Shown piece after piece: positions 59,639-64,000 of a DNA stretch of 64,000 nt. A program made the position numbers and the translations under genes. Position 1 is the stretch's first letter. Every line of letters starts with the position of its first letter. The DNA lies in NCBI RefSeq assembly GCF_037076455.1, contig NZ_AP028679.1, positions 2,123,501-2,187,500 on the forward strand, read 5' to 3'. Origin of the DNA: Desulfoferula mesophila. GTDB lineage: Bacteria > Desulfobacterota > Desulfarculia > Desulfarculales > Desulfarculaceae. The notes beneath the pieces were generated by a model. The model did no database searches. It saw only the letters and a program-made list of their open reading frames with translations, and was not told where the DNA came from.

Positions 59639-60205
59639 TCAGGCCATCAACTTTTGGCCTTTTAGCGCCTGGGCCACCCTGGCGATGTTCTTGCCGTGTT
59701 GGATGCAGGCCTCGGAGCGCTCTTCGGGAAGCCCGCCCGCTATGGGCGTCAGGTCTTCGTTGTGGGCGCGGCCATAGGGACCCCAGTGGGCGCCGCCCTT
59801 GGCGTAGCCTGGGGCGCTCTTGGGCAGGGGCACCATCACCATGCCCAACTCGCACAGGTTGTTGAGCATGGACAAAAGGGTCAACTCACTGCCTTCGCCG
59901 GCATTGCCAAAGCCGGAGCCGCAGGCGAACACCGCGCCCACCTTGCCCACCACCTCGTCGCCCATCCAAAGCCCGCCGCACTGCTGGTCGATGAACTTTT
60001 TCACCCGCCAGTCCATGCAGCCCATGTGTACCGGGCTGCCCAAAACCAAGGCGTCTGCGGCCAAGACATCCTCGGAGGTGGCCTCCTCGGCTAGTTTCAG
60101 TATGGCTTTGCAGCCCTCTATGGACTCCACACCGGCGGCGATCTTTTCCGCCATCTTATGGGTACCCTTATGATCGGTGGCATAGACGATGAGAATCTCT
60201 GCCAT
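59639..60205 (-). CDS. Flavodoxin-like NAD(P)H:quinone oxidoreductase (WrbA-like)
   Basis: A 188-residue flavodoxin-fold protein. EILIVYATDHKGTHKMAEKIAAGVES is the FMN-phosphate loop region, GSPVHMGCMDWRVKKFID is the second FMN loop, and the end (GPYGRAHNEDLTP..ARVAQAL) matches WrbA-type proteins. It carries FMN and reduces quinones or transfers single electrons in the cytoplasm. ATG 60205 follows AAAGGAGAA; a longer reading is unsupported. Confidence 0.88.
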   Translation of the reverse strand: MAEILIVYATDHKGTHKMAEKIAAGVESIEGCKAILKLAEEATSEDVLAADALVLGSPVHMGCMDWRVKKFIDQQCGGLWMGDEVVGKVGAVFACGSGFGNAGEGSELTLLSMLNNLCELGMVMVPLPKSAPGYAKGGAHWGPYGRAHNEDLTPIAGGLPEERSEACIQHGKNIARVAQALKGQKLMA

Positions 60206-60293
60206 GGTGTTCTCCTTTGTTCCAGGTTCATGGCTGTTCCTTATAACTATATAACTATGGCCACCAAGTGCTGGGTGTGACAAGGCCTGCTCA

Positions 60294-60328
60294 TAAAAAA
60301 AGGGCTTCTCCCCGAGGGGAGAAGCCCT
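60294..60328 (-). terminator. Intrinsic terminator after the catabolic cluster
   Basis: Minus-strand stem AGGGCTTCTCCCC / GGGAGAAGCCCT followed by a T-run (A-run on the plus strand). It marks the 3' end of the ALDH transcript. Confidence 0.88.
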
Positions 60329-60355: not shown

Positions 60356-61846
60356 TTACACCCAGCGGGCGGTGACGGTCCTTTCGTCCAGGAACAGGCG
60401 CATGGAGGCCAGGCGGGACTTGGCCGCGCCCAGGAAGCTCTTGCGCTTACTTCCCAAGGGGAAGAAGGCGTAGGGCTGGGGCACGCCCACGTTGATGCCC
60501 ACGTTGCCCACGTTCACCTCGCGGGCGAACTGGCGGGCCGTGGCGCCGCTGGAGGTCATGATGCAGGCGCTGTGTCCCAGGTCGGTCTTGGTGTTGATCC
60601 ACTCGATCACCTGCTCCACGCTGTCCGCGCGGATCAGGGAAGCCACCGCGCCGAAGGCCTCCTGCTTGCAGATCTCCATGTCGATGTCGGCGTCTTCGAT
60701 GATGGTGGGGCCAAGGAAGTAGCCGTCGGGATAGTCCGCCGGCACCATGGTGCGCCCGTCCAGGACCATCTTGGCGCCCTCGGCCAGGCCGCGCTCCACC
60801 CAGGCCCACACCTTGTCGCGGCCGGCGGCCGTGGCGTAGGGGCCCATGGTCACCGACTCGTCCAGGCCGTAGCCCAGCTTCATGGCCGAGGCGTTTTCCA
60901 CCAGCGACTGCTTGACCGCCTCATAGCGGGCCTTATCGCCCAGGATGACCACGTTGTCCGAGCCCAGGCAGCGCTGGCCGGTCATGCCGAAGCAGCCCTG
61001 ACGCACATAGGCGGGGCAGGATTCCAGGTCGGCGTCGGGCGTGATCACCACGGTGTTCTTGCCGTTGCCGTTGAGGCTGGAGGTCTTGCCCAGCTTGCCG
61101 CACTGGGCGAACAGATCCAACCCGGCCGAGGTGGAGCCGATGAAGCCGATGCCCTCGATCTCCGGCTGCTCCAGGATGTAGCTGTTGACGTCGCGGCCGC
61201 CGTGGATCAGGTTGATGCATCCCGCCGGGAAGCCGGCCTCCAGGGCCACCTTGCTCATGTAGTCGGCGGCCACCGGGTCCTGGCGCGAGGGGCTGACCAC
61301 CACGGGGCAGCCCGCGGCCAGGGCGTAAGGCACGAAGGAGCTCCAGGCGTGCATGGGGATGTTGCCGGGAGTGACGATGAGGAAGGGGCCCAGGGGCTCC
61401 CAAGTCAACCACATGTCGATGCCCCGGGCCAGGTTGTCGATATGCTCGTTGCGCGCGGCCATGCCGTAGGCGGCCGAGCAGGCCGACTCGATGTTCTCGA
61501 TGGAGCGGCGCACCGAACCCGCCGCCTCCTTGTAGGTGCGGCCGTGGTCCTGCACCAGCACCCGGGCGAGCATGTCCTCCTCGCGGTCGAAGATCTGGCG
61601 CATGTTAAAGAGCATGCGGGCCCGTTCGCGCAGGGCGATTCCCTTCAGGGCCACGAAAGCTTGCTGGGCCGCTTCCACCGCCGCCCGGGCCTCCTGTTTG
61701 GTGGCCGTGGGGTACTCGGCGATCTCCACGCCCGTGGCCGGGTTGTAGGTCTTGTTGATGATATCGGACTTGGATTCCACCCACTCGCCGCCGATGAGCA
61801 GCTTCAGGCGTCCGTAGTGGCTTTTGACTTCGGGTAAAATGGCCAT
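60356..61846 (-). CDS. Aldehyde dehydrogenase, MMSDH-like (CoA-acylating type)
   Basis: A 496-residue ALDH. The catalytic Cys293 is in the MTGQRC segment; the Glu usually in LELGGK is absent and the region reads LNGNGKNTVV, as in methylmalonate-semialdehyde dehydrogenases, which make acyl-CoA from a semialdehyde. The end FLDERTVTARWV is MMSDH-like. In the cytoplasm it would oxidise the aldehyde made by the enamidase-like enzyme, giving an acyl-CoA (inference). ATG 61846 follows GGAGAGGG; it is the last gene of the cluster. Confidence 0.87.
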   Translation of the reverse strand: MAILPEVKSHYGRLKLLIGGEWVESKSDIINKTYNPATGVEIAEYPTATKQEARAAVEAAQQAFVALKGIALRERARMLFNMRQIFDREEDMLARVLVQDHGRTYKEAAGSVRRSIENIESACSAAYGMAARNEHIDNLARGIDMWLTWEPLGPFLIVTPGNIPMHAWSSFVPYALAAGCPVVVSPSRQDPVAADYMSKVALEAGFPAGCINLIHGGRDVNSYILEQPEIEGIGFIGSTSAGLDLFAQCGKLGKTSSLNGNGKNTVVITPDADLESCPAYVRQGCFGMTGQRCLGSDNVVILGDKARYEAVKQSLVENASAMKLGYGLDESVTMGPYATAAGRDKVWAWVERGLAEGAKMVLDGRTMVPADYPDGYFLGPTIIEDADIDMEICKQEAFGAVASLIRADSVEQVIEWINTKTDLGHSACIMTSSGATARQFAREVNVGNVGINVGVPQPYAFFPLGSKRKSFLGAAKSRLASMRLFLDERTVTARWV

Positions 61847-61888
61847 GGTCGGCCCTCTCCTCACTAATGATTAACTTGGGGCGCGGCC

Positions 61889-62467
61889 CTAACGCAGGCC
61901 GTCCTCGTACTTGGCGTCTGCGGTGGTAAGGCCGCCGATGCGGGGCAGGGGACGGCCGGAATCGGTGACCACCAGGGCCACCAGGATCTCGTCGGGCAGG
62001 GGAGCGTCTTCCAGGTTCACGGTCATGCCGTCAAAGTGCGAACGGATGAAAGCCGCGTCCTTGTGGTTCAGGGGCACGTCGATGGTGCATCCGGCCGGGC
62101 CGCGCTTTTTTACCGAGGGTATCAGGGCCAGGCCCCGGCCCAAGGCCTTGCGGAAGGGGGCGCCCAGCTTGGGGTGCAGGATGGCCGCGCCGTGCTCCAA
62201 CTCGCCGTCCAGGCCGATTATGGCCGCCTTGCCGTAGCTCTCGCATTGCTCGGGGGCGATGCCCAGGGCCTCGCGGGCCTTGTTGCCCAAAAGGTCGCCC
62301 AACTGTTCACCGATGTTCATCAGCTCGCTGAGGTCCTCGGCGTATTCGTGGGCAAAGGGGTTGTGGATAACCGCGATGGCCGCCGCTTTGCGGGTGGCGG
62401 GCTTGATGTCGCGGCCCGCCTCCTGCAGGGTCTCCTCCACTATGGTCACCAGCTTGCGAATCTGCAT
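61889..62467 (-). CDS. AA_synth-family (PF06684) protein
   Basis: A 192-residue soluble protein. It matches the AA_synth (amino acid synthesis) family: KPATRKAAAIAVIHNPFA, SYGKAAIIGLDGELEHGAAILHPKLGAPFR and RSHFDGMTVNLEDAP are conserved-looking blocks. The family is often near amide-cleaving and N-heterocycle catabolism genes, but no reaction is proven. It sits between the amidohydrolase and ALDH genes on the same strand, with short gaps. Confidence 0.8.
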   Translation of the reverse strand: MQIRKLVTIVEETLQEAGRDIKPATRKAAAIAVIHNPFAHEYAEDLSELMNIGEQLGDLLGNKAREALGIAPEQCESYGKAAIIGLDGELEHGAAILHPKLGAPFRKALGRGLALIPSVKKRGPAGCTIDVPLNHKDAAFIRSHFDGMTVNLEDAPLPDEILVALVVTDSGRPLPRIGGLTTADAKYEDGLR

Positions 62468-62497
62468 GGTTTCATCTCCAGGAAATTGAGAAAAATA

Positions 62498-63655
62498 CTA
62501 GTCCACCACCTGGGCCTTGCGAACCGCCGGCGGGGTGTTGCGGCTTACCTTGGCCACGATCTTGCCGTCGATAAGGATCATGCTCACGCCGGGGGTGTCG
62601 CCCTCGGAAAGGGCCTCGAGCACGTCGGCGCCCGGTGAGCCGATGGGCGTGTCCATGAATACCAGGTCGGCTTCCAGGCCCACGGCGATCCGGCCCCGAT
62701 TTAGGCCGTAAAGCTTGGCGGTGTTGCCGCTGGCCATGGCCACGGTAAGCTCAGGCGCCACCCCGCCCAGGCTGGCCACCATGGCCATGTTGCGCAGGAT
62801 GCCCAGGGTCACCACCCCGGTGCCGCTGGGTGCGTCGTTGCCGAAGATCACCCGGCCCCATTGCTTGGTCTCGTCCATGTAGCGGGCCACCTCGGCGGCG
62901 CGCTTCACGTTGCCGCACTGCACGATCTCGATGGCCACGTCGGTCTGGTCGATGATGCGCTTGGCTTCTTCCAGGCTCACCGCGGTGGGCCCGCCGTTGA
63001 TGTGGCTGGCCACCGAGGGTCCGGTAGCGATGATTTGTTCGGCGCCCACCGGGGAAGATCCGGGAATGGAGGTGCCGCCGGTGTGCATCATCACCACCAT
63101 GCCGCGGGCCTTGGCCCAGGAGGCCATCTCGGTGGACTCGGGCGGGTTCTTGACCGAACCCAGGCCCACCTCGCCCACGACCTTGACCCCGGCCTGGGCG
63201 CATTCTTCGATGTCCGCCTCGGTGAGGCCCTTTTCCAAAATCAGCGCGCCGCCCAAGACCTTCATGCCTCCGGGGCGCACAGCGGCCCAGCTCTTGGCGG
63301 CCACGATGGCCAGACACTTGGTGCCCAGGGCGTCCTTGGGCCGGCCGGGCAGGTGGACCTCGCCCGCGCTGATGGAGGTGGTCACGCCGCCGTGCAGGGA
63401 AGAATCCAGGAAGTTGACCATCTGCTGCCGGGGGGTCCAGTCGCCCAAGACCACGTGGCAGTGCGAGTCGATGAGGCCGGGGGTGAGTGCGCAACCCTGG
63501 GCGTCGATCACCATGGCGCCTTGGGGAGCCGCGAGGCCCGAGCCGATTTGTTGGATCAGTCCGTCGGCGATTACCAGGCTGTCGGCATCAAGGATGGGCT
63601 GGTCAATATCGCCGCTAAGCATGAGACCGACGTTTTTTACCAAAACCGAACTCAT
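62498..63655 (-). CDS. Enamidase-like amidohydrolase (nicotinate-fermentation type)
   Basis: A 385-residue metal-dependent amidohydrolase. Metal ligands are H65 and H67 in DSHCHV, E162 in GEVGLG, H191 in MMHTGGTS, H218 in ASHINGG and D274 in FGNDAPSGTG. Long stretches such as MHTGGTSIPGSS, IEIVQCGN and NDAPSGTG closely resemble enamidase of Eubacterium barkeri, which opens the cyclic amide of 6-oxo-tetrahydronicotinate to 2-formylglutarate and ammonia. The exact substrate is unproven. It precedes AA_synth and ALDH and follows the regulator. Confidence 0.85.
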   Translation of the reverse strand: MSSVLVKNVGLMLSGDIDQPILDADSLVIADGLIQQIGSGLAAPQGAMVIDAQGCALTPGLIDSHCHVVLGDWTPRQQMVNFLDSSLHGGVTTSISAGEVHLPGRPKDALGTKCLAIVAAKSWAAVRPGGMKVLGGALILEKGLTEADIEECAQAGVKVVGEVGLGSVKNPPESTEMASWAKARGMVVMMHTGGTSIPGSSPVGAEQIIATGPSVASHINGGPTAVSLEEAKRIIDQTDVAIEIVQCGNVKRAAEVARYMDETKQWGRVIFGNDAPSGTGVVTLGILRNMAMVASLGGVAPELTVAMASGNTAKLYGLNRGRIAVGLEADLVFMDTPIGSPGADVLEALSEGDTPGVSMILIDGKIVAKVSRNTPPAVRKAQVVD

Positions 63656-63683
63656 TTGATTCGCTTCCTTTCAGAAATGGCTT

Positions 63684-64000
63684 TTACCAACTGGGGGGAG
63701 TGACGACCCATACCAGCCGGCAGGGTTGCTTGGCCTCGTTGGTCCAGGCATGGGGTTGAGTGGAGGAATAGTAAAAGGAAGAACCGGCGGGAACCTGGTA
63801 GACGTTGTCGCCCAGGCGCAAGGTGAGTTCGCCCTCCAGAACCAAGCCGAACTCCTCGCCAACGTGATGATAATCTTCCTTGGCGCCTCCGCCGGGTTGG
63901 ATCACTGTGTAAAATGGCTGCATGTGGCGATGCTTGACCATGCGCACCATCTGCTTGATGTCCGCTTTCCAGCGGGGCAGGCTCACCCTGACCCATTGCG
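63684..64000 (-). CDS. Cupin-domain transcription regulator, N-terminus outside the window
   Basis: About 105 residues up to the window edge with an open frame beyond it. It is a cupin-2 domain: HHVGEEFGLVLEGELTLRLGDNVYQVPAGSSFYYSSTQPHAWTNE and the ending VVTPPSW are typical of XRE-family regulators with a sensory cupin. The helix-turn-helix part must lie further right. It is directly upstream of the enamidase-like gene on the same strand and likely controls it. Confidence 0.8.
   Translation of the reverse strand, partial: QWVRVSLPRWKADIKQMVRMVKHRHMQPFYTVIQPGGGAKEDYHHVGEEFGLVLEGELTLRLGDNVYQVPAGSSFYYSSTQPHAWTNEAKQPCRLVWVVTPPSW

Follow-up and report, generated by a model that had tools for sequence, protein, structure and literature searches.

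In the 64,000-nucleotide stretch of the Desulfoferula mesophila genome analysed here (the window; NZ_AP028679.1, positions 2,123,501 to 2,187,500), annotation of the open reading frames places four minus-strand genes in an operon, transcribed in the order HTH-cupin regulator, enamidase, AA_synth protein and a dehydrogenase resembling methylmalonate semialdehyde dehydrogenase (MMSDH). These genes would make up the lower part of a divergon for anaerobic nicotinate catabolism. We propose, with a probability of roughly three in four, that the MMSDH-like dehydrogenase of this nicotinate cluster turns 2-formylglutarate directly into glutaryl-CoA, CO2 and NADH. A preliminary description of this DNA had claimed the linkage of the four genes, which are indeed all on the minus strand in this order and whose families are again associated with enamidase in dozens of genomes. 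It had also suggested oxidation of the aldehyde to a CoA ester in place of its reduction, a view now strengthened on three counts: exclusivity against the Hgd/Mgm branch, the pattern of active-site residues, and the glutaryl-CoA dehydrogenase and glutaconyl-CoA decarboxylase A subunit (GcdA) encoded in the genome. That description did not propose a decarboxylation, by which the dehydrogenase would in the same step remove the carboxyl group as CO2 and so yield glutaryl-CoA. The four genes are as follows, with THON standing for 1,4,5,6-tetrahydro-6-oxonicotinate.

63684..64000, minus strand: HTH-cupin regulator, C-terminal part in the window, cut by the window end
62498..63655, minus strand: enamidase, 385 amino acids, THON ring-opening amidohydrolase by homology to 2vun
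61889..62467, minus strand: AA_synth (PF06684, DUF1185), 192 amino acids, Pfam match
60356..61846, minus strand: MMSDH-like, CoA-acylating-type aldehyde dehydrogenase, 496 amino acids, proposed 2-formylglutarate dehydrogenase (decarboxylating, glutaryl-CoA-forming)

Proposed pathway

Nicotinate would be imported by a TRAP transporter, converted to 6-hydroxynicotinate by a Mo/FAD/2Fe-2S nicotinate dehydrogenase and then to THON by 6-hydroxynicotinate reductase (HNR). The enamidase, aided by AA_synth, would open the THON ring and release ammonia, yielding 2-formylglutarate. The MMSDH-like dehydrogenase would then carry out an NAD-dependent oxidation of the aldehyde on its active-site cysteine; the adjacent carboxylate would leave as CO2 and the acyl group would pass to CoA, yielding glutaryl-CoA in a single step. 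Oxidation by glutaryl-CoA dehydrogenase followed by decarboxylation by glutaconyl-CoA decarboxylase would lead to crotonyl-CoA. MMSDH converts methylmalonate semialdehyde (2-formylpropionate) to propionyl-CoA, CO2 and NADH, and 2-formylglutarate is the higher homologue of this substrate, with CH2CH2COO- replacing CH3. Because the substrate is homologous to that of MMSDH and the enzyme is MMSDH-like, the corresponding products would be glutaryl-CoA, CO2 and NADH. What is observed is gene content, homology, conserved residues, co-occurrence and mutual exclusivity; from these we infer which substrate is used, each of the reactions and the release of CO2.

Enamidase and substrate of the cluster

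The enamidase is 57% identical to the crystallised enamidase of Eubacterium barkeri (2vun), which it matches over residues 1-383 (phmmer E = 8e-139, 465.8 bits), while the next PDB match is a hydantoinase (1e-10, 44 bits). In an alignment of 11 enamidase homologues H65, H67, E162, H191, H218 and D274 are invariant; these six residues (HxH, bridging Glu, two His and Asp) are, by comparison with 2VUN, the expected ligands of the two metals. The initial view of an enamidase-like amidohydrolase with all its metal ligands is borne out, at an identity well over the 30% named there as the lower limit and with the six expected ligands retained. The comparison supports the assignment of the window amidohydrolase as an E. 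barkeri-type enamidase, predicted to convert THON to 2-formylglutarate and ammonia.

For the full regulator and the genes beyond the window we used the whole genome, a single contig of 4.48 Mb. Just past the window edge, a divergent operon starting ~410 bp upstream of the regulator encodes a TRAP transporter (DctP-DctQ-DctM), 2Fe-2S, FAD and Mo subunits, a 513-residue ferredoxin-domain protein and an ApbE-like protein. The Mo subunit, a fusion of what are two separate chains in E. barkeri nicotinate dehydrogenase (3hrd), has 3hrd A as its top PDB match, with 3hrd B also among the best. The 513-residue protein, which has an N-terminal 2[4Fe-4S] domain, is 51% identical over 496 residues to E. 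barkeri HNR, a full-length homology, and the ApbE-like protein is 35% identical to the product of the E. barkeri gene after hnr. Since the upstream nicotinate enzymes are encoded just past the window edge with E. barkeri-like identities, we predict with high confidence that the substrate of the cluster is nicotinate. The different branch of N-heterocycle or lactam catabolism first suggested for this locus is supported as a separate branch, and its substrate, then left broad, can now be named.

Distribution of the two tails

Some 85,000 species genomes were scanned with the enamidase alignment, which gave 80 loci, each taken with flanks of up to 10 kb; their open reading frames were searched with the proteins of the window and with those of E. 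barkeri, whose own locus (L085) was included. AA_synth was found in 70 loci, HNR in 66 and the Mo subunit in 62. The MMSDH-like dehydrogenase occurs in 37 of the 80 loci and the E. barkeri tail, counted as any of Hgd, Mgm, Mii, MutL and Dml, in 22, and the two were never found together (0/80). Clustering of the four families with enamidase is far above chance, and the conserved association for which the preliminary description had proposed a survey is strong across these loci. Among the 21 loci with neither dehydrogenase nor tail, 17 genomes were searched whole and 13 of them have a window-type or related dehydrogenase elsewhere; the same kind of whole-genome search found no window-type copy in any of the 22 tail-type genomes.

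The split between dehydrogenase and tail largely tracks phylum. Two Desulfobacterota loci, L049 and L086 (Smac51), join the core cassette of this phylum to a fermentative tail, which argues for a tail that is exchangeable within Desulfobacterota. In a second sample of 60 related genomes (23 with enamidase and 37 without), the window-type dehydrogenase was present in 12/23 enamidase-positive and 0/37 enamidase-negative genomes.

The MMSDH-like dehydrogenase

The MMSDH-type label given in the preliminary description holds in part: the best NCBIfam model is TIGR01722 (MMSDH), with a score of 341 bits that stays below the cut-off of 448.5, so the enzyme can be called MMSDH-like only. The dehydrogenases of the clusters are of type A (window-like, 53-92% identical) or type B (~35% identical to A). 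Type B from L043 passes the MMSDH cut-off (472 bits) and that from L031 is just short of it (441 bits). In the tree both types form a single clade with support of 1.0, on which ground the idea of type B as a separate recruitment of MMSDH was rejected, and this clade groups with true MMSDHs at 0.96.

The equivalents of R124, R301 and C302 are invariant in all 36 cluster dehydrogenases (26 of type A and 10 of type B). In MMSDH, as in the Bacillus subtilis enzyme, both arginines bind the substrate carboxylate next to the aldehyde. Glu268 is the general base of hydrolytic aldehyde dehydrogenases and is needed for the release of a free acid; at its position there is Asn in 26/26 type A and Gln in 10/10 type B sequences, and Glu in 5/7 comparison aldehyde dehydrogenases. 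R124 and R301 alone were rejected as proof of MMSDH chemistry, as two Glu268-bearing aldehyde dehydrogenases also have both.

Glutaryl-CoA metabolism in the host

As the proposed product of the dehydrogenase is glutaryl-CoA, its metabolism is predicted in the host. The genome encodes a glutaryl-CoA dehydrogenase of the Desulfococcus type (715 bits, cut-off 470), followed directly by GcdA (E = 1e-226 to 3gf3). Among the genomes reached through the survey, a strong glutaryl-CoA dehydrogenase was detected in 23/25 dehydrogenase-type genomes (in one of the 23, split over two contigs) against 0/22 tail-type genomes. As independent proof this co-occurrence was discarded, being weakened by the clade control, and we read it as consistent with glutaryl-CoA formation only.

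Alternative explanations

Several observations weigh against the direct formation of glutaryl-CoA by an MMSDH-like enzyme. The dehydrogenase scores under the curated MMSDH cut-off, and its arginines, shared with some aldehyde dehydrogenases that keep Glu268, are by themselves not diagnostic. The correlation with glutaryl-CoA dehydrogenase follows the clade, as relatives without enamidase also have this enzyme, and a strong one is missing in some type B genomes. Also, in Azorhizobium caulinodans THON is reported to reach the TCA cycle via glutarate with a separate decarboxylation (PMC3511419), which makes a two-step version conceivable here. In such a version 2-formylglutarate, a beta-oxo acid, would first lose CO2, spontaneously or enzymatically, and the glutarate semialdehyde formed would then be turned by the dehydrogenase into glutaryl-CoA or glutarate. 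Aerobic plasmid-borne clusters that hold enamidase, AA_synth and HNR with no adjoining MMSDH-like gene would fit this order of events. However, the dehydrogenase-type clusters have no conserved decarboxylase, the two presumed carboxylate-binding arginines are invariant and the glutamate for free-acid release is lost, and we consider the two-step route unlikely.

That the cluster degrades another N-heterocycle or a cyclic lactam, and merely resembles a nicotinate pathway, seems to us quite improbable. Enamidase-like/AA_synth pairs without an annotated HNR in Thermomicrobium and Mesorhizobium imply a use of the pair on further substrates, but in this cluster the three upstream nicotinate enzymes are all encoded, at E. 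barkeri-like identities, and related loci carry a nicotinamidase-like gene. Similarity to MMSDH might also mean a general detoxification or housekeeping enzyme that lies in the operon by chance, an explanation to which we give hardly any credit. The genome has two further MMSDH-like genes, with active-site motifs near-identical to each other, and the one that was scored (L101) is above the MMSDH cut-off, from which we conclude that the operon dehydrogenase is not the housekeeping copy; the confinement of the window type to enamidase-positive genomes in the second sample points the same way. These two genes, L101 and L102 (G000:C1:279471 and 4258871), encode similar 535-amino-acid dehydrogenases with Lys at the R124 position and without Glu268. 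Direct conversion of 2-formylglutarate to glutaryl-CoA is therefore the reading that we retain.

AA_synth as a partner of enamidase

The AA_synth protein scores 239.4 bits with its Pfam model (gathering cut-off 27) and is 53% identical to the product of the reading frame directly after ena in E. barkeri. In the 60 related genomes its presence coincides exactly with that of enamidase (23/23 against 0/37), and it is kept with both tails, the MMSDH-like dehydrogenase or the E. barkeri type. Because it is found with either tail, and also beside enamidase-like genes without a nearby annotated HNR, AA_synth most probably works together with enamidase, ahead of the branch point, as its obligate partner. 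The earlier idea that it could supply a missing step of the new branch has to be given up, as the protein is not branch-specific and belongs to the shared enamidase module. A possible role may be enamine/imine hydrolysis or stereospecific protonation, a guess that we think more apt to fail than to hold. The E. barkeri enamidase has been described as bifunctional, opening the ring and deaminating by itself (PMC9304392), and a strict need for AA_synth in vitro is disfavoured for this reason.

The predicted AA_synth model (pLDDT 88.8) has a clear structural match to its own family only, with a chorismate-mutase-like fold. Outside this family Rid, chorismate mutase, PurM and Toblerone cyclic-amide hydrolases all give Z 6-7, too weak to choose among them; for Rid/YjgF PA0814 the value is 6.7, below the threshold of 8 set by the tool for a meaningful match. 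Two DUF1185 structures have been described, SPO0826 (2qtp) and BB2672 (3byq) (PMC2954203); the window protein is 64% identical to SPO0826, with the same fold in the predicted model. The SPO0826 structure paper (PMC2954203) suggested a function in (branched-chain) amino-acid metabolism, in part because transporter genes for branched-chain amino acids lie nearby. A Sulfitobacter AA_synth encoded three genes from HNR shares 88% identity with SPO0826, and given this close homologue near HNR nicotinate catabolism appears a better reading of the family context than amino-acid metabolism, and the name AA_synth misleading.

AA_synth and enamidase-like amidohydrolase pairs with no annotated HNR nearby were seen in Thermomicrobium and on Mesorhizobium plasmids. 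The pairs at L153:11380-13164 and L154:11375-13185 lie beside genes of a Mo hydroxylase and of CoA-type or SSADH enzymes and likely serve other N-heterocycle pathways. In aerobic clusters of Comamonadaceae and of Sulfitobacter plasmids (L151:6427-7691, L152:14342-15504) there are two adjacent diverged AA_synth paralogues, SPO0826-like and BB2672-like, which possibly form a heteromer. A second, weak AA_synth match in the D. mesophila genome (C1:1461795) was discarded as spurious, since its reading frame resembles an ABC-transporter substrate-binding protein.

Operon structure and neighbouring genes

The gaps between the four genes are 28, 30 and 42 bp. In the extended sequence the regulator gene reaches ~64241 and encodes 185 amino acids, with an N-terminal XRE-type HTH (HTH_3) and a C-terminal cupin (Cupin_2); its nearest NCBIfam model is PuuR, at 102.6 bits and below the cut-off of 211. 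The likeliest start of the dehydrogenase is the ATG at 61846, with GGAG a few bases upstream, and a GTG at 61864 is the alternative. Two further features lie downstream.

60301..60328, minus strand: intrinsic terminator of the four-gene operon, 12-pair stem then TTTTTT (L003:7829-7802)
59639..60208, minus strand: WrbA/flavodoxin-like protein, beyond the operon terminator

The terminator, graded strong, is placed just 3' of the dehydrogenase gene. The WrbA/flavodoxin-like gene adjoins the dehydrogenase in two close relatives only (L022, L023) and is probably a separate unit.

An ApbE-like (UPF0280) gene stands beside HNR in 55 of the 80 enamidase loci (here L004:4174-5055, plus strand, outside the window; in E. 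barkeri L085:3313-4158), and a search of 52 HNRs did not find the ApbE flavinylation motif. Six enamidase loci (L056:6074-6793, L036, L046, L084, L092 and L096) contain an isochorismatase-family, nicotinamidase-like gene, whose product in L056 apparently has a signal peptide. This protein is probably a nicotinamidase, which suggests that nicotinamide also feeds into the pathway.

Meaning and comparison with known systems

In the open-access literature, a scope outside which older subscription papers fall, we found no earlier proposal linking 2-formylglutarate to glutaryl-CoA or to an MMSDH-like enzyme. If the proposal is true, one dehydrogenase would stand in for at least four fermentation enzymes, a B12-dependent mutase among them, and a CoA thioester would conserve the energy of the aldehyde. 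It would also explain how sulfate reducers and related anaerobes could oxidise nicotinate completely, and it gives a lead on the function of DUF1185/AA_synth, a family whose crystal structures date back to 2007-2008. A bolder version, which we hold tentatively and at somewhat less than even odds, is that AA_synth is a new enzyme family of the chorismate-mutase/YjgF/cyclic-amide-hydrolase fold group that works with enamidase-type amidohydrolases on the ring-opened enamine, by hydrolysis or stereospecific protonation, that the MMSDH-like protein found with it is a new enzyme, a decarboxylating 2-formylglutarate dehydrogenase, and that together they make up a third, glutaryl-CoA-forming branch of nicotinate catabolism from THON, widespread in Desulfobacterota.

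The window dehydrogenase shares with MMSDH (IolA/MmsA/ALDH6, TIGR01722) the fold, the catalytic Cys, the two arginines, the lack of Glu268 and the phylogenetic group. It differs in being 32-34% identical to IolA and 5tjr and below the curated cut-off, and all type A enzymes have Gln-Arg-Cys-Leu and not Glu/Gln-Arg-Cys-Met, and Ser at the Lys192 equivalent. E. barkeri is known to proceed through THON to 2-formylglutarate, and Azorhizobium from THON to glutarate (PMC9304392, PMC3511419). With the E. barkeri cluster (hnr, ndhFSLM, ena, hgd, mgm, mii, dml, dmdAB) the system shares nicotinate dehydrogenase, HNR, ApbE-like protein, enamidase and AA_synth, at 35-57% identity. In contrast, 2-hydroxymethylglutarate dehydrogenase, methyleneglutarate mutase, methylitaconate isomerase and dimethylmalate lyase are absent here and the MMSDH-like dehydrogenase is found instead, with a TRAP transporter and a different regulator. 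The aerobic pathway of Azorhizobium caulinodans and Bradyrhizobiaceae (PMC3511419) has the steps to THON and the C5 destination (glutarate or glutaryl-CoA) in common with it; there glutarate is reported as an intermediate, whereas here glutaryl-CoA would arise directly, with no separate decarboxylation or CoA-transfer step.

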